Shown one piece after another: positions 54,123 to 63,609 of a stretch of 64,000 nucleotides of DNA. This DNA is from a candidate division BRC1 bacterium HGW-BRC1-1. GTDB lineage: Bacteria > Sumerlaeota > Sumerlaeia > Sumerlaeales > Sumerlaeaceae. A model generated the notes under the pieces. The model was not told the DNA's origin and ran no database searches. It was given only the letters and a program-made list of their open reading frames with translations. The stretch's first letter is position 1; each line of letters begins with the position of its first letter. The position numbers were made by a program, and so were the translations under genes. The stretch covers positions 186,001 through 250,000 of the forward strand of contig PHCB01000007.1 in the NCBI GenBank assembly GCA_002842095.1. Direction: 5' to 3'.

Positions 54123-54794
54123 TCAACCGGCGTCGGGCAGAAGTCGGTCGAGAATGTCGATGGCTGCTTGTGGGTCCTCACCGTAATGGGCGTTAATTTC
54201 TGATGCGAAAGCGTGGCTGAGGGGTGCGCCGCCTACGAGCACCGGCACGTTAACCTCTGCATCGCGCAATTGTTTCACCACATCACGCATCGTTTCCATG
54301 GTCGTGGTCAGAAGCGCGGAAAGGCCGATGGCGTCGGGTTTATGTTCCAGGGCCGAAGCCACAAAATTTGCAGAGGGGACGTTGGCTCCGAGATCGACGA
54401 TTTTCCAGCCCACCCCTTCGAGAAGCATCTTCACCAGATTCTTTCCGATGTCGTGAATGTCGCCCTGCACCGTGCCGAGCAGTACCGTGCCGCGGGTTTT
54501 GATGTCACCGGCCTGCAGGTGTGGCATTACTTCTTCCACGCCCGCTTTCATGGCCTTGGCGGCTAACAGCAATTCCGGCACGAAGACGGTTCCCTCACTA
54601 AACTTTTTTCCCAACGCCCGAATGCCCGGGGTCAGGGCCTCGTTCAAAATGCGCAACGGATCCATCCCCTCGGCGATCAGTTCACGCACACATTCGCGCA
54701 CGCCCGGCTGGCCGATCAGGCCGCGGGGGTATTTGGATGCGGCATCGGTTTTGCCTTGTTCGACAAGCGAGGCTATTTGTTCGAGAGTGGCCAT
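54123..54794 (-). CDS. Corrinoid (B12-binding) methyltransferase protein, solitary
   Basis: 223-residue protein of the MtaC/MtbC/MttC-type corrinoid proteins. Residues 1-90 form the helical cap (EALTPGIRALGKKFSEGTVFVPELLLAAKAM) and residues 100-220 the Rossmann B12 domain with GTVQGDIHDIGKNLV, where His114 is the lower axial cobalt ligand. The middle LGANVPSANFV and LSALLTTTMETM are typical. No methyltransferase or corrinoid-activating gene is near. It carries methyl groups between a donor and a thiol or folate; partners are unknown. Confidence 0.92.
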   Translation of the reverse strand: MATLEQIASLVEQGKTDAASKYPRGLIGQPGVRECVRELIAEGMDPLRILNEALTPGIRALGKKFSEGTVFVPELLLAAKAMKAGVEEVMPHLQAGDIKTRGTVLLGTVQGDIHDIGKNLVKMLLEGVGWKIVDLGANVPSANFVASALEHKPDAIGLSALLTTTMETMRDVVKQLRDAEVNVPVLVGGAPLSHAFASEINAHYGEDPQAAIDILDRLLPDAG

Positions 54795-56720: not shown

Positions 56721-56957
56721 ATGGCAGTTGAGCAGAAGGTGAAAGAGATCGTCGTTCAGCAACTGGGCGTTGATGAGGATCAGGTGACGATGGAGGCTTC
56801 TTTCATCGAAGATTTGGGCGCCGATTCTTTGGATACGGTCGAGTTGGTCATGGCTTTCGAAGAAGAATTCAATGTAGAGATCCCCGACGAAGATGCGGAG
56901 AAAATCACCACCGTATCGCAGGCCGTGGAGTACATTAAGAGCAAGTTGAATGCGTGA
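56721..56957 (+). CDS. acpP: Acyl carrier protein
   Basis: 78-residue ACP of fatty acid synthesis. The phosphopantetheine site is [15 protein letters not shown] with Ser36; the fold is helical and acidic ([30 protein letters not shown]). GGAGG precedes ATG 56721. It is followed by fabF after 107 bp with a terminator-like hairpin between. Compare the ACP-like domain fused to the PLP enzyme at 59797. Confidence 0.95.
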
Positions 56958-56994: not shown

Positions 56995-57046
56995 CAGCGT
57001 CGGTTTTCGTCCCCAAGCCGGGGCGGTGCCGACGCTGATTTTTTTT
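56995..57046 (+). terminator. Terminator or attenuator between acpP and fabF
   Basis: CAGCGTCGG (56995-57003) pairs with CCGACGCTG (57029-57037), and a T-run of eight follows. A second small hairpin (CCCC-AAG-CCGGGG) sits inside the loop. It would end part of the acpP transcripts and let only some proceed into fabF, giving higher ACP levels. Confidence 0.8.
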
Positions 57047-57064
57047 GAGAGAGAGCCTTTAATT

Positions 57065-58309
57065 ATGACGAAAAACAGAGTGGTGGTAACCGGCCTCGGA
57101 GCCCTTACGCCCATTGGTAACACAGTTCCGGAATTCTGGGATGGATTGGTCGCCGGCAAGACGGGCGCCGGTCTTATCACCCGGTTTGATACGGAAGCGT
57201 TCGATGTAAAGTTTGCGTGCGAGATCAAAGGTTTCAACGCTGAAGACCATTTCGAGAAGAAGGAAGTCCGCAAGATGGACTCCTTCGTGCGTTATGCCGT
57301 GGTGGCCGCACGCGAGGCTGTTGCGGATGCAGGTTTGAAGATCGATGAATCAAACTCGGACCGCATCGGTGTGGTAATAGGTGTAGGCATGGGTGGGGTT
57401 ACCACCATCGAGGAACAGATGGCCGTCCTTCTCACCAAGGGACCCAATCGGGTAACTCCTTTCCTTGTCCCCAAGATGATTCCGAACATGGCTGCGGGCC
57501 TGGTTTCCATTTACCTTGGTGCGCGGGGCCCCAACACCTGCATCACGACAGCCTGTGCCAGCAGCACCAACGCTGTGGGCGAGGCTTACCGCATGATCCA
57601 ACGCGGCGATGCCACTGCTATGATTTGCGGCGGTGCAGAAGCGACAATCACGCCGCTCTCAATCGCGGGCTTCAGTAACATTCAGGCCCTCAGCAAGCGT
57701 AACGATGAATACCTGAGTGCAAGTCGCCCGTTCGATGGGACTCGCGACGGATTTGTGATGGGCGAGGGTGCGGGCATTCTTATATTGGAGAGCCTTGAAA
57801 GCGCCATGGCACGCGGTGCGCGGATTTACGCTGAATTGGCAGGGTATGGTTTGTCCGGCGATGCCTTCCACATGACCGCTCCCGGCCCCAACGGCGAGGG
57901 TGGTGCGAGGGCCATGAAGATGGCTGTCGATAGTACGGGCATGGCGCTCACGGATGTGGACTATATCAACGCCCACGGAACCAGCACACCGCTCAATGAC
58001 AAACTGGAAACGCAGGGGATCAAAGCGCTGTTTGGCGACCATGCGCGGAAGCTCATGATCAGCTCGAACAAAAGCATGATCGGCCATCTCATCGGTGCGG
58101 CCGGTGGTGTGGAAGCCGTGGCGACTGTCAAAACGGTGAGCGAAGGGATAGTGCCTCCGACCATCAACTATCAGACCCCCGACCCCGAGTGCGATCTGGA
58201 CTACGTGCCGAACACCGCGCGCAAGGCCGAGGTCAATCTGGCTCTGAGCAACTCACTCGGCTTTGGCGGGCACAACGCGACCATCGCTGTTCGTAAATTC
58301 GAGAAGTAA
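57065..58309 (+). CDS. fabF: 3-oxoacyl-ACP synthase II
   Basis: Condensing enzyme of fatty acid elongation, 414 residues. The catalytic triad is Cys164 in TTACASSTNAVG, His in YINAHGTSTPLND near 304, and His in NKSMIGHLIGAAG near 341; LSNSLGFGGHNATI closes the domain. The start MTKNRVVVTGLG at ATG 57065 matches the family; an upstream in-frame ATG at 57026 lies inside the terminator. It works with AcpP. Confidence 0.95.
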   Translation: MTKNRVVVTGLGALTPIGNTVPEFWDGLVAGKTGAGLITRFDTEAFDVKFACEIKGFNAEDHFEKKEVRKMDSFVRYAVVAAREAVADAGLKIDESNSDRIGVVIGVGMGGVTTIEEQMAVLLTKGPNRVTPFLVPKMIPNMAAGLVSIYLGARGPNTCITTACASSTNAVGEAYRMIQRGDATAMICGGAEATITPLSIAGFSNIQALSKRNDEYLSASRPFDGTRDGFVMGEGAGILILESLESAMARGARIYAELAGYGLSGDAFHMTAPGPNGEGGARAMKMAVDSTGMALTDVDYINAHGTSTPLNDKLETQGIKALFGDHARKLMISSNKSMIGHLIGAAGGVEAVATVKTVSEGIVPPTINYQTPDPECDLDYVPNTARKAEVNLALSNSLGFGGHNATIAVRKFEK

Positions 58310-58371
58310 CAAATAGTTCGACGCCTGCGCTCTTTTGCAGCGGGTGAATTGCAAAGACGAAGATCATCATG

Positions 58372-58405
58372 CGCCGGACAGTCCTTCACTGTCCGGCGTG
58401 TTTTC
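58372..58405 (+). terminator. Intrinsic terminator after fabF
   Basis: Perfect 11-bp stem CGCCGGACAGT (58372-58382) and ACTGTCCGGCG (58388-58398) with loop CCTTC, then TG and TTTTCTTTT. It separates acpP-fabF from the operon that follows. Confidence 0.9.
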
Positions 58406-58519: not shown

Positions 58520-59788
58520 TTGCGGGTAACATATGGATCCGAGTGGTTGGAAGTTGGGGTTCCGGGCGAGGTGGTGGTGCTGTGCCCTCCGGAGACGAAA
58601 CCATCTTTGTCCCTGGCCGCGATTATCCAGTCCGCTTTGGATCAGCCCGTGGGGGGGCGATCACTTGCGGAATTAGCAATGCAGGCGGACTCGGCACTTA
58701 TTATGATCGCGTGCCGGACACGGCGTACCGGGAGCGAAGTGTTCATTCCCGAGATCGTGCGCGTCCTGAACGAAGGGGGGATCGCTGATGGCGCCATCAC
58801 GGTGTGTACCGCCACGGGGACTCACGATAATTTCCGAGCGGAGGATGCCGAACTTCTGGCCGGGTCCGACTGCGCGCGACGGTTAAACTTCACGGGGCAC
58901 GACTGCCGAACCCCGGAAATGCTCGCAGAGGTGGGTACCACGACGCGCGGGAATCGGGTGCGTCTGGCTCGCCGTTACCTTGATTCGCCTTTGCGCATCA
59001 CGACCGGACGGGTGACGTACCATTATTTCGCCGGATTTTCCGCCGGGCGTAAGGGAGTGCTGCCGGGGGTGGCGGCGCTGGATACCATCCTTACGAATCA
59101 CGCGCTGGCGGTGTCGAAAGAGGGGAGGCAGGTCCGCCTCAATCCCCATGCCTGCAATGGTAATCTCGCCACGAATCCCGTGCATCTGGATATGCTGGAA
59201 GCGGCTCGTATGGCACCTCCACATTTCACGCTGTGCACCGTTCTTAATACGAACGACGAACTTGTGTCGGCCTATGGCGGCGAGATGGAGGCGGCCCACG
59301 CAGCGGGAGTCGCGCAGGTTCGGGCGAGCGACCGCGTGGAAATCGAGGAGCCATTCGATTGGATGGTTGTTAGCTGTGGCGGAGCCCACTGCGACGTGAA
59401 CGTCATTCAAGCCATCAAAGCGTTGTTGAACAATTATCAAGCGGTGCGCCGGGGCGGGGCCATTATTTTCGTGGCTGAATGCCCCGAGGGATCACCCGAC
59501 TGGTTGCTGGAGGCTTGCGCCCTTCGGGGCGAGGGCGAACTGGAGGCGAAAATCCTGAAGGGTGAGGTGCGCCAAGCGCATAATCCCCTGTGGATTCGCG
59601 ACGCCCGCGAGCACGCCCATGTCATCATGGTTACGAAGTTGGCGCCCGCTGCGGTCAGCGCCTTGGGGTTTCATCACGCCTCAAGCATCTCTGAGGCTGT
59701 GCAAATGGCAGGGGTTCTAGCGGGGTCACCACGCCGCACCGCCGTTGTGCCTTATGGAAATATTACTGTAGTGGAATTAAAGGAGTAA
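58520..59788 (+). CDS. LarA-family (nickel-pincer lactate racemase-like) protein
   Basis: 422-residue homologue of LarA, which racemises or epimerises 2-hydroxy acids with a nickel-pincer nucleotide cofactor. In Lactobacillus LarA, the key residues are His108, His174, Lys184 (cofactor tether) and His200. Here, counting from TTG 58520, the equivalents are His102 (TATGTHDNF), His168 (VTYHYFAGFS), Lys178 (AGRKGVLPG) and His194 (LTNHALAV), all with the same offset of six. The TTG start is eight bases after GGGAGG and gives the family length. It is first in a four-gene operon. LarB, LarC and LarE are not in the window. The substrate need not be lactate. Confidence 0.88.
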   Translation: MRVTYGSEWLEVGVPGEVVVLCPPETKPSLSLAAIIQSALDQPVGGRSLAELAMQADSALIMIACRTRRTGSEVFIPEIVRVLNEGGIADGAITVCTATGTHDNFRAEDAELLAGSDCARRLNFTGHDCRTPEMLAEVGTTTRGNRVRLARRYLDSPLRITTGRVTYHYFAGFSAGRKGVLPGVAALDTILTNHALAVSKEGRQVRLNPHACNGNLATNPVHLDMLEAARMAPPHFTLCTVLNTNDELVSAYGGEMEAAHAAGVAQVRASDRVEIEEPFDWMVVSCGGAHCDVNVIQAIKALLNNYQAVRRGGAIIFVAECPEGSPDWLLEACALRGEGELEAKILKGEVRQAHNPLWIRDAREHAHVIMVTKLAPAAVSALGFHHASSISEAVQMAGVLAGSPRRTAVVPYGNITVVELKE

Positions 59789-59796
59789 TTTTTATC

Positions 59797-61293
59797 ATGC
59801 CTGATCAAAGTCGAATTACACTCAAATGCGTGAAGTGCGGGAAGGTCTACCCGTGGTCGTTCAGCGTCCAATGCGCCGACTGTAACAACGCGCTCATCGA
59901 TATAGACTACGATCTGTCGAAGGCTCGCATCGGCCGCGAGGGACCGATGATGGAGCGATATTTCGATTTCCTTCCGCTGACCCGGCGCGAATTTATGATC
60001 GATGGTGGCGAGGGGAACACGCCCTGTGTTCATTCCAGGGAGTTGGGAAAGGCTCTGGGGTTTTCGAACCTTTACTCGAAGATGGAAACAGCCAACCCCA
60101 CGCGAACCACCAAAGACCGGCAGGGCACGATGGCCGTGGCGGCCTTGCGTGATCTGGGCATTTCGCGGTTCATCACTTCTTCAACGGGCAATTCCTGCAC
60201 TTCTCTTGCGCGCATTGTGTCGCGCTTCCCGGACATGCACATGAGCATCTTCGTCGGGGATGAATTCTTGAAGCGGGTGAACTGGGTGGATGCTCCCAAC
60301 GTGGATGTCTACTGGTTGAAAAACGGCACGTTTGTGGAAGCGCACCAGGCGGCGCGTTGGTGGAGCAACAAAACCGGCGACAGCTCCGAGCGTGGATTCT
60401 TTTTCTTCGGCAAGCGCGAGGCATTGAAGATCGCTTACATGGAAGCGGTGGAGCAGGTGCCGAAACCCATCGAGTATTACGTGCAGGGGATCAGCAGCGC
60501 CATGGGAGTTTACTCCACCTGGAAGGCATCGTATCAGATGAAGGAGATCGGTCTGGTGGAACGGATCCCCGGGATGATCTGTGTGCAGGAAGAGACGTGC
60601 AATCCGATGGTGCGGGGCTGGGAACGGGGACAGGAGCAGATGTCGCCGGAAGATGTTATCCGTTATCCCCGCGGGTTGTCGAAGAGCACCCTGCGAGGCG
60701 ACCCCAGCATGGTGTTCACTTATGTGCGCCATGCGGTGGCGGATAGCGGAGGCACCATGTTGACGGCCTCGCAGGATGATATGCGCGAAATGAAGAAGCT
60801 GGCGATGGATACGGAAGGCATGGACATCTGCCACACGGCTGCCATGACGCTGGCCGGAATTCGCACGCTTCTCAAACAGGGGTGGCTCAAGCCCGACGCG
60901 GTTCTGTTGTTAAACATGACCGGCGCTGACCGCGTGGGTGCCGCCCATGCGATGCCCAAATTTGTGGTGGAGCGCGATGAGGTTGACGAATGGCGCGTTA
61001 CCCCCTTCGAGGGAGGAAGCGTGGAGGGCGCGCTGGATCGCGTGGAGCGTGTTCTTGTGGAATCCCAAAAGCTACCCGGCGATGTTGAATTGGACACCGA
61101 AACATGGTTGCTCGGAAAGGGTCTGGCACTTGATTCCGTCGCACTTCTCGAGTTTTCGCTGGCGCTGGAAAAGGAGTTTGAGTTCGAGGTGACCGAAGAA
61201 GAACTAAACTATGAGAATTTCCGTACGGTGGGATCCGTGGCTGATCTGTTCCGCTCGAAAATGGCAGACCACGCTTTGAAACGTAATGGGTGA
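59797..61293 (+). CDS. Threonine synthase-type PLP enzyme fused to an acyl carrier domain
   Basis: 498 residues in three parts. Residues 1-40 form a zinc ribbon (Cys11, Cys14, Cys26, Cys29). Residues about 70-415 are a fold-type II PLP domain of the threonine/cysteate synthase family: PTRTTKDRQ with Lys106 as PLP lysine, SSTGNSCTSLA as phosphate-binding loop, VQGISSAMGVYSTWKAS, and LLLNMTGADR near the end. Residues about 425-490 are an acyl carrier domain with GLALDSVALLEF, whose Ser447 would carry phosphopantetheine. The fusion suggests the substrate or product is tethered to the enzyme. It is eight bases after larA and overlaps the ligase gene by eight. Product unknown; a cysteate synthase-like reaction is one possibility. 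Confidence 0.88.
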   Translation: MPDQSRITLKCVKCGKVYPWSFSVQCADCNNALIDIDYDLSKARIGREGPMMERYFDFLPLTRREFMIDGGEGNTPCVHSRELGKALGFSNLYSKMETANPTRTTKDRQGTMAVAALRDLGISRFITSSTGNSCTSLARIVSRFPDMHMSIFVGDEFLKRVNWVDAPNVDVYWLKNGTFVEAHQAARWWSNKTGDSSERGFFFFGKREALKIAYMEAVEQVPKPIEYYVQGISSAMGVYSTWKASYQMKEIGLVERIPGMICVQEETCNPMVRGWERGQEQMSPEDVIRYPRGLSKSTLRGDPSMVFTYVRHAVADSGGTMLTASQDDMREMKKLAMDTEGMDICHTAAMTLAGIRTLLKQGWLKPDAVLLLNMTGADRVGAAHAMPKFVVERDEVDEWRVTPFEGGSVEGALDRVERVLVESQKLPGDVELDTETWLLGKGLALDSVALLEFSLALEKEFEFEVTEEELNYENFRTVGSVADLFRSKMADHALKRNG

Positions 61294-62704
61294 ACCATTG
61301 ATCACGGGTCATGGTATAAACAAAATTGTGATCTGGGAGCCGCAGCGTCAGTTTTCGAAAGCAGAGGTCCTGGCAGCCGTCGCCACGCGGCGCGTGGATT
61401 TTTCGAGCGCGGGACTGCTGCCGGGTGCACGCGTGTTGATTGTCTGCCACTCGCAGGCAGAAACAGTGTTTGATGCGTTGGCCTTGCGCGATTGTTCTGT
61501 CGTGCCTGTATCGTCCAGCCTGACGGTGGGGGAGAGGCAGGCACTGGCGCAGAGGTTCGGTCTGGAAGCCATCGTGGAACTCGGAAATGTAACCGCCACG
61601 GGTGAACCCGGGCCGGAGTCCGTTATAGCTGAGAATGCTGATAATTGCGAAACCCCGATGCTTGGTTTGCTTTCAAGTGGCAGTACTGGAAGCCCGAAAT
61701 TCGTATGGCGAAATGCGCAGCAGGTGCGGGCAGCGGGTTCTATTTTTCGGAAGTCCCTTGGGTTGACGGGCGATGATTGCATCATGGCTGTCATCCCGCT
61801 GGAGCATAGCTATGGTTATCAGAACCTGATGCTGGCGGCGCTGGGCGCGATTGAAGAGAGCGGCAACGATTCTTCCACTGATGATGAGTTGGTGCGGTTA
61901 GCGTTTCCCCGCACACAGCATCCGCGCTCCGTTGCGCGTTGCGCGGAGCCCTCGGGCACGACCATTTTCCCCGGAGCGCCCGCTTTCCTGGACATGATGA
62001 CACGCATGGTTGAGCCGGAAGGGTTGGCCAAATCCGTGCGCATTTGTTTGTCGGTGGGAACGGCCCTGTCGACGCGGATTCATCGCGATTTCAGCCAGCA
62101 CTTTGGCGTGCCGCTATGGCAAAGTTACGGCGCCAGCGAGGCGGGGCCTGTGTGTTTGAATCGCGACGGTGGCTCGTCCGGTGACCTCATGGATCTGGGC
62201 GCTGTGTGCGATGGAGTTGTGGTGCGAATCGTGGACAGGGATGGAACCGATCTGCCCGACGGTGAGGAGGGCGAACTCGTTATAGAATCTCCGGCGGTGG
62301 GGATGCGGTATGAGGGAAATCACGATGGCGCGTCTCGAATTTTGCCCGGCGTTTTTCACTCGGGTGATTTGGGGATTCGTGAAGGGGGCCGACTTCGTTT
62401 CTCCGGGCGGCGCAAACTGCTAATCTCCGTGGCTGGAAATAAGGTGGACCCTCTGGAGGTGGAGGAAGTCCTGCGCCTTCATCCCGACGTGGCGGACGTT
62501 GCGGTGGTGGCGGCCTCGGGCGAGGATGCTCGTGAGTGGGTAAAAGCGCTTGTGGTGTCACGCAAGCAACTGAGTGCATTAACGTTGATGGACTTTTGCG
62601 CGCAAAAACTCGCTGCATATAAAGTGCCGCGAGTGATTGAGTTTCGAAGTGAGCTGCCTCGAAATTCCATGGGGAAGTTACAGAGGGATAAACTGAAACC
62701 ATGA
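61286..62704 (+). CDS. AMP-forming acyl/aminoacyl ligase
   Basis: 472-residue ANL-superfamily enzyme. The ATP-binding loop is LLSSGSTGSPKFV near 130, the aromatic motif PLEHSYGYQNL, then QSYGASEAGPV, HSGDLGIREGGRLRFSGRRK and the catalytic Lys464 in RNSMGKLQRDKL. The N-terminal part is shorter than in standard acyl-CoA ligases. The overlap with the PLP-ACP gene suggests it loads that carrier domain, as DltA does for DltC or an A domain for its carrier. Substrate-binding residues cannot be read reliably by eye. Confidence 0.88.
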   Translation: MGEPLITGHGINKIVIWEPQRQFSKAEVLAAVATRRVDFSSAGLLPGARVLIVCHSQAETVFDALALRDCSVVPVSSSLTVGERQALAQRFGLEAIVELGNVTATGEPGPESVIAENADNCETPMLGLLSSGSTGSPKFVWRNAQQVRAAGSIFRKSLGLTGDDCIMAVIPLEHSYGYQNLMLAALGAIEESGNDSSTDDELVRLAFPRTQHPRSVARCAEPSGTTIFPGAPAFLDMMTRMVEPEGLAKSVRICLSVGTALSTRIHRDFSQHFGVPLWQSYGASEAGPVCLNRDGGSSGDLMDLGAVCDGVVVRIVDRDGTDLPDGEEGELVIESPAVGMRYEGNHDGASRILPGVFHSGDLGIREGGRLRFSGRRKLLISVAGNKVDPLEVEEVLRLHPDVADVAVVAASGEDAREWVKALVVSRKQLSALTLMDFCAQKLAAYKVPRVIEFRSELPRNSMGKLQRDKLKP

Positions 62705-63609
62705 AATTGAACCGGGTCCTGATATCTACTCCTGCATGGGCGAAGGTAATGCAGTGGCTTCCAGCGGGTATGTTGCCTTCACTTATTGGCGTCCAATCCC
62801 GACTGGCATTGTTGAGTATGGGACGGAGTCGTCGCAGGAAGCTGAGGGCGTTTTTCGAACAGGTTCGCCTACGCACAGGGACGCATAAACCTGCCAAGGA
62901 CTTATTGCTGGGGCATCTAAAGGCGGAAGGGTTAGGCCGCGCAGCCTTGGCCCGCGCTGTCCGTGCCCAGGGCACCGGCGACGATCCTCTGCTTCAGGTG
63001 GAGGGGATGGATCATGTGGCGTCATGTTTACTGCAAGGCAGGGGGTGCGTTCTGGGAGGATTGCATCTTGGCGCTGGTGCCCTGCCGGCGGCATATCTGG
63101 TTCGCCAGGGGATTCCAGTGGTCACGTTGCGGCGTCTCGAACTGAAGGACAAGTATGACCCTGATGAAGTGGAACCTCGTTTCTATGGAGCTGAACCACG
63201 GTGGATTTCAAACGATGAAAATCCCGCAGCACTCATGAAGGGCTGCCTCAAGGAGCTGTCAGCAGGCAAGATTGTTTCGTACCTTGTTGATGGTTCAATC
63301 GGCGAGCGGGGGGTGGTGGTCGATATTTTCAACACGCCGGTTTTCATGAGATCAGGAGCGCTGGACCTCGCGCGCCTGGCGAAGGTGCCCTTCTTTCCGG
63401 CCTTCGGATGTGTGGGCAAGGACAGGGTCACCATCAAATTTCATGAACCGATCAATCTTTCAGGTCCAGAAGACGTGAACGAAGCCATGGCCTTGGTCGG
63501 CAACCTTTACGAGGAATTCGTGCGAGAATATCCCACGAATTGTTCGCGTCGTCATGTTGATCAATACATCTTCGAAGGTCGCAAGGCCGCCATCCACGGC
63601 CCCCGATAA
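62701..63609 (+). CDS. LpxL/HtrB-like acyltransferase with a degenerate catalytic motif
   Basis: 302-residue protein of the lipid A biosynthesis acyltransferase-like family. The N-terminal helix (LPAGMLPSLIGVQSRLALL) anchors it to the membrane. The expected H-x4-D/E site falls at GLHLGAGAL: His122 is there but residue 127 is Ala where an acidic residue should be. The rest fits: VDGSIGERGVVVDIFNTPVFM, GALDLARLAKVPFFPAFG. It overlaps the ligase stop by four bases (ATGA). It may transfer a carrier-bound product to a lipid, or be inactive as an acyltransferase. No acidic residue in the near neighbourhood obviously replaces the missing one. Confidence 0.8.
   Translation: MKLNRVLISTPAWAKVMQWLPAGMLPSLIGVQSRLALLSMGRSRRRKLRAFFEQVRLRTGTHKPAKDLLLGHLKAEGLGRAALARAVRAQGTGDDPLLQVEGMDHVASCLLQGRGCVLGGLHLGAGALPAAYLVRQGIPVVTLRRLELKDKYDPDEVEPRFYGAEPRWISNDENPAALMKGCLKELSAGKIVSYLVDGSIGERGVVVDIFNTPVFMRSGALDLARLAKVPFFPAFGCVGKDRVTIKFHEPINLSGPEDVNEAMALVGNLYEEFVREYPTNCSRRHVDQYIFEGRKAAIHGPR

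Follow-up and report, generated by a model that had tools for sequence, protein, structure and literature searches.

The DNA analysed in this study, a 64,000-nucleotide window (positions 186,001 to 250,000 of contig PHCB01000007.1) of the candidate division BRC1 bacterium HGW-BRC1-1, belongs to a 3.77 Mb genome of Candidatus Sumerlaeota and carries, between positions 58520 and 63609 of its plus strand, an operon of four tightly packed open reading frames that together suggest a so far undescribed biosynthetic route based on a carrier. The encoded proteins comprise a LarA-family member, an enzyme dependent on pyridoxal phosphate (PLP) with an acyl carrier domain as its C-terminal part, an adenosine monophosphate (AMP)-forming ligase of the ANL type and an acyltransferase resembling LpxL and PatA. 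Comparison between genomes establishes the four genes as a conserved unit that stays together from one genus to another, which we interpret as a dedicated carrier-dependent biosynthetic operon of a single Sumerlaeota family. In our best model, to which we assign a probability of about one in three, a polar 2-hydroxy acid held on the carrier would be joined to a beta-substituted alanine, with product, substrates and the order of steps inferred throughout. A search of titles and abstracts, from which most subscription journals were missing, returned no description of a pathway combining LarA with carrier-protein clusters.

The compact organization of the operon had been noted in an earlier inspection of the same DNA, hereafter the sequence-only reading, and the 8-bp gap and the overlaps of 8 and 4 bp, which successively join the genes of LarA, PLP fusion, ligase and acyltransferase, are reproduced exactly in our gene calls. 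The co-conservation in related genomes on which that reading depended was found as well: G001, G002, G004, G005 and G007 all contain the four genes in unchanged order and with their near-overlaps, the set being divided between two contigs in G007. The fusion is absent from G003 and no match was obtained in G006, a genome that is 66% complete. Across 40 Sumerlaeota genomes, the fusion proteins score above 700 bits (as two halves in G007) compared to at most 156 bits for other PLP enzymes, and the operon LarA proteins score between 750 and 785 bits compared to at most 261 bits for the next LarA of the phylum. When 386 sampled genomes were searched with the fusion, scores above 600 bits were reached in just one further lineage, and within all genomes searched the PLP-carrier fusion itself is confined to one Sumerlaeota family. 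The flanks of the operon vary among these relatives and include a purA side, Dpy19-like, YicC-like and unnamed neighbours, with purA and YicC assigned by eye from sequence. Since the ratio of nonsynonymous to synonymous change (pN/pS) ranges from 0.34 to 0.77 despite near-saturated synonymous sites, all five domains of the operon are under purifying selection, the acyltransferase least so.

Independent support for this association, as judged from gene order and phylogeny, is provided by a second lineage, where in two genomes (L050 and L081) the nearest relatives of the operon LarA and of its PLP domain are encoded next to each other. In the respective trees these proteins are sister to their operon counterparts with a support of 97 in either case, and the LarA of this lineage, at 400 bits, is the nearest one found outside of the operon. 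Further LarA proteins are present in the L050 genome, none of them the close one. In the L050 cluster, the LarA-PLP pair is followed by asnB, which encodes an asparagine synthetase, and by genes for an acyltransferase of the MBOAT type, a carrier that stands alone and an ANL ligase, whereas an Sfp-type phosphopantetheinyl transferase is encoded upstream. The PLP subfamily extends to Streptomyces, with members in 9 of the 393 genomes searched. Several of them lie next to genes of nonribosomal peptide synthetases (NRPS), polyketide synthases (PKS) or ATP-grasp ligases, and they are likely annotated as threonine synthases. Others among these cysteate-synthase-like Streptomyces enzymes (L051, L074-L080) are located near cysteine-dioxygenase-like or thiamine pyrophosphate-enzyme genes, and in Streptomyces diastatochromogenes (L052:8935-10124) the homologue is broken into two overlapping frames by a frameshift or an assembly error. 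A distant PLP match of 208 bits in another genome (G766) was dropped, as no LarA, carrier or ligase was recognisable in its vicinity.

The first gene (58520..59788) was assigned from its Pfam matches, the mapping of residues, its position in the tree and its conservation in six genomes. Its frame is open from 58427 and most likely starts with the TTG at 58520, which is preceded by GGGAGG and yields an N-terminus (MRVTYGS) in agreement with the MRVEMPYGS of relatives. The protein matches Lar_N with 161.8 bits (cut-off 23.3) and LarA_C above its cut-off, and it is a predicted 2-hydroxy acid racemase or epimerase of the nickel-pincer nucleotide (NPN) type. This assignment is reflected in the catalytic residues His108 and His174 and the NPN ligands R75, K184 and H200, all of which are retained in the six operon proteins and in those of L050 and L081. 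Genes for synthesis of the cofactor are found in the same genome, adjacent to each other and away from the operon (LarB with 271.9 bits at a cut-off of 175, LarC above its cut-offs), LarC is present in eight of eight genomes, and a second full-length LarA was not found in the source genome. The four positions named as determinants of selectivity (PMC11770544) are occupied by Y, F, H and N without exception in the eight proteins from the operon and the L050 group, where the H and N were located by alignment with the malate racemase Mar2 (HK) and by profile alignment. Among published patterns, 2-hydroxyglutarate racemases come closest with Y, F, H/Q and T (PMC11770544). Asp72 of LarA is replaced by Cys in the operon and by Gly in L050, with basic residues nearby, which are Arg73 and Arg76 in the operon proteins and Lys73 and Arg78 in L050. 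Owing to this pocket and to the changes at and around position 72, the substrate is likely a polar or anionic 2-hydroxy acid. A racemase of hydrophobic 2-hydroxy acids resembling LarAH10 has become a weaker candidate because position 358 contains a His instead of Phe or Tyr, and the NCBIfam cut-offs for the malate racemase LarAH6 (293.7 vs 500 bits) and for LarAH10 (280.1 vs 540 bits) are not reached. A separate group of full-length LarA-like proteins in the Sumerlaeota families f7 and f13 (L104-L115) has nearly all of R75, H108, H174, K184 and H200 replaced, so that both NPN binding and a His-based racemase mechanism seem impossible in these proteins.

The second gene (59797..61293) encodes a protein of 498 residues, whose two parts are defined by Pfam (PALP 103.1 bits at a cut-off of 35, PP-binding PF00550 23.3 bits at a cut-off of 20.8), alignment, fold match and tree. 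The PLP domain shows fold type II with a Zn-ribbon-like N-terminus and carries its PLP lysine at position 106. Its top fold match is CapA2 (Foldseek 3.7e-23; Z 40.5 over 391 residues), the cysteate synthase of sulfonolipid synthesis in Alistipes finegoldii (PDB 9k3c), compared to a Z of 38.4 for plant threonine synthase. In the tree, the operon family shares a branch with CapA2 at a support of 99 in the Shimodaira-Hasegawa-like approximate likelihood ratio test (SH-aLRT), and the proteins have a FQAVxSGxG-type and an LNxTG motif in common. The sequence data thus define the domain as a relative of cysteate synthase and not of threonine synthase: for the latter, the score is 137 bits at a cut-off of 303, the NSxNPxR motif is absent and a grouping with short threonine synthases is rejected by the approximately unbiased (AU) test (p 0.003). 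No curated NCBIfam model reaches its cut-off, including that for cysteate synthase (TIGR03844, 125.6 vs 324.9 bits). On plasmids, the best matches were ordinary threonine synthases of less than 30% identity. The family assignments of the sequence-only reading, namely LarA, a PLP-carrier fusion, an ANL ligase and an LpxL-like acyltransferase, hold up with Pfam scores above their cut-offs, and what had to be given up is the threonine synthase type proposed for the PLP domain.

The carrier domain (61021..61290), assigned by PF00550 and alignment and with AsbD as top NCBIfam match, contains the phosphopantetheine site Ser447 within a LALDSV motif that is invariant in the alignment, and its helices 447-461 and 481-496 are found in a structure model, although at low confidence. 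Together with an AcpS-type phosphopantetheinyl transferase in the genome (70.7 bits), this serine would allow the modification that the sequence-only reading required. The ligase of 472 residues (61286..62704; AMP-binding 105.3 bits at a cut-off of 29.9, AMP-binding_C above its cut-off, alignment) contains the P-loop SSGSTGxPK and the C-terminal Lys of its GKL motif. In its A4 motif PLEHSYG, His174 is invariant in six of six proteins, at a position that we take to be that of the Asp in domains activating alpha-amino acids (Asp235 of PheA). Due to this exchange, the loading of an alpha-amino acid, which had been considered before, is disfavoured, and an acid devoid of an alpha-amino group appears more likely. 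The last gene, after that of the ligase, encodes the ACYLTRANSFERASE, a protein of 302 residues (62701..63609), assigned by Pfam (Lip_A_acyltrans PF03279, 50.9 bits at a cut-off of 22.3), alignments and fold, which resembles PatA (Z 20.4) and LpxM (Z 18.6). Its invariant residues His122 and Asp197 align with His126 and Glu200 of PatA, which presumably are the catalytic positions.

As far as can be judged from sequence, each enzyme of the operon has thus retained its cofactor-binding or catalytic residues, except for the acidic residue in the HX4D/E motif of the acyltransferase, and a carrier-based pathway ending in this enzyme, as had been suggested initially, stays the best reading. In our model, the ligase would adenylate a carboxylic acid that lacks an alpha-amino group and load it onto the carrier part of the fusion at Ser447. 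This acid is most likely a polar 2-hydroxy acid, with its configuration at C2 set by the NPN-dependent LarA. Through a beta-replacement on a phosphoserine-like substrate, the PLP domain would form a beta-substituted alanine, and the acyltransferase would pass on the acid from the carrier, with a lipid or the amino acid formed by the fusion protein itself as acceptor, which would give an acylated amino acid or a small aminolipid. It appears unlikely that the operon constitutes the first carrier-protein pathway with a nickel-pincer cofactor, where LarA would set or invert C2 of an anionic 2-hydroxy acid such as 3-sulfolactate or a 2-hydroxydicarboxylate before its loading onto the PLP-fused carrier, thus leading to a new class of hydroxyacyl-amino-acid lipids or metabolites. 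Several observations speak against the model. The long branch of CapA2 adds some risk to the placement of the PLP domain. The substrate motif of this enzyme, GGxxNxARRxG, is kept with small variations in L050 and the Streptomyces relatives and reads ERGFFFFGKREAL, RGFFFFGKREAL or similar in the operon, where the N and the first R are replaced in five of five aligned proteins. Because of this alteration, the substrate may differ from that of CapA2, and the model may err even with regard to phosphoserine. In the acyltransferase, the acidic residue of HX4D/E is substituted by A, G or H while His122 is invariant, which makes its activity uncertain, and with identities of 22-31% it is the least conserved of the operon proteins. 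Finally, the orthology of the L050 carrier and ligase to their operon counterparts is not clear, and LarA is absent from the two checked Streptomyces genomes that contain PLP relatives.

Among alternative explanations, it is conceivable that the operon makes a carrier-bound building block of a small specialised metabolite, with the PLP enzyme providing an unusual amino acid and the acyltransferase releasing the product to a small acceptor. Such a role would be in line with the NRPS, PKS and ATP-grasp neighbours of the Streptomyces relatives and with the asparagine synthetases, Sfp-type phosphopantetheinyl transferase and ANL ligases of the L050 cluster, but the operon has neither a condensation domain or PKS nor an exporter or resistance gene next to it, and its acyltransferase belongs to lipid-acylating families. 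Owing to CapA2, a sulfonolipid-type pathway is a serious rival, even if we regard it as doubtful. In this case, the PLP domain would be a true cysteate synthase acting on phosphoserine and sulfite, the ligase would charge the carrier with a fatty or 2-hydroxy fatty acid, cysteate would be acylated or condensed to a capnine-like lipid and LarA would determine the configuration of the 2-hydroxy fatty acid or act on sulfolactate. The sulfonolipid had been listed as one option in the sequence-only reading and has gained some weight from the fold match and the well-supported clade, to which can be added the use of acyl-ACP (acyl carrier protein) by SulA, the condensing enzyme of that pathway (PMC9304779), and the cysteine-dioxygenase-like gene near some Streptomyces relatives. 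It has lost weight by the low TIGR03844 score, the altered substrate motif, a LarA pocket dissimilar to that of hydrophobic-acid racemases and the absence of a cysteate-acyl condensing enzyme, since no SulA/Spt-like protein is encoded in the operon or was recognised in the flanks viewed, with the rest of the genome not searched for one.

A decoration of the cell surface in the manner of Dlt systems, where the ligase would load a small hydroxy acid onto the carrier for transfer by the acyltransferase to a glycolipid or lipid A, LarA would make its D- or L-form and the PLP domain would replenish the pool of acid, for instance through beta-elimination, is quite improbable in our view. The triad of ligase, carrier and acyltransferase, the MBOAT acyltransferase of L050, which is of the DltB-type family, and LpxM as second-best fold family would suit such a function. 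However, a fused and co-conserved PLP enzyme is hard to account for as supply alone, and no cell-envelope genes were recognised beside the operon in relatives. That four unrelated metabolic genes are adjacent by chance or ancestry is extremely improbable, given that five further members of the family share the gene order. Although the restriction to one family would be compatible with this explanation, the genes have retained their overlaps amid differing neighbours and LarA and PLP enzymes are paired independently in another lineage.

The operon is preceded by a strong predicted intrinsic terminator (58369..58401, plus strand), consisting of a 14-pair stem with eight GC pairs and the tail TTTCTTTT, which separates larA from acpP (56721-56957) and fabF (57026-58309). 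Because of this terminator and since acpP-fabF was not found beside the operon at any relative's locus, both genes are assigned to a separate unit and we have discarded their proposed coupling to the operon as suppliers of fatty acyl groups. Further upstream, a stand-alone B12-binding (corrinoid) protein is encoded on the minus strand (54123-54794) next to nadA. On the downstream side, about 4 kb away and following a minus-strand ftsK-like gene, we find the large and a probable small subunit of a nickel-dependent hydrogenase (L042:5034-7441).

Homologues of LarA are known mainly from racemisation assays, many of them without known cellular role, and the link of one subfamily, in two unrelated lineages, to a particular PLP subfamily as well as to genes of carriers, ligases and acyltransferases offers a functional setting that can be tested. 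Since the best-scoring models for this PLP subfamily are threonine synthases, the assay of a single member would aid the annotation of the others. The comparison with known systems illustrates what sets the operon apart. With NPN-dependent racemases of 2-hydroxy-dicarboxylates (malate LarAH5/6 and 2-hydroxyglutarate), its LarA shares the His pair, the NPN ligands, a neighbouring branch of the tree and the Y, F and H of the pocket, but it differs by the Asn at the Thr/Lys specificity position, the exchange of D72 to Cys, the basic residues 73 and 76, its location in a carrier-protein operon and a score of 294 bits at a cut-off of 500. The PLP domain resembles CapA2 (9k3c; TIGR03844) over the whole length of its fold, in clade support and in both shared motifs, whereas its score far below the curated cut-off, the altered substrate motif, the fused carrier and the different partners distinguish it. 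The acyltransferase has the fold and the His126/Glu200-equivalent positions of PatA, LpxM and LpxL, at about 20% identity and without conservation of the acidic HX4D/E residue. Finally, as in DltA-DltC-DltB and the AsbC-AsbD ligase-carrier pair, a stand-alone ANL ligase is found beside a carrier and followed by an acyltransferase, but in contrast to these systems, the carrier is fused to a PLP enzyme, the A4 motif of the ligase contains His instead of Asp and a LarA protein is present.

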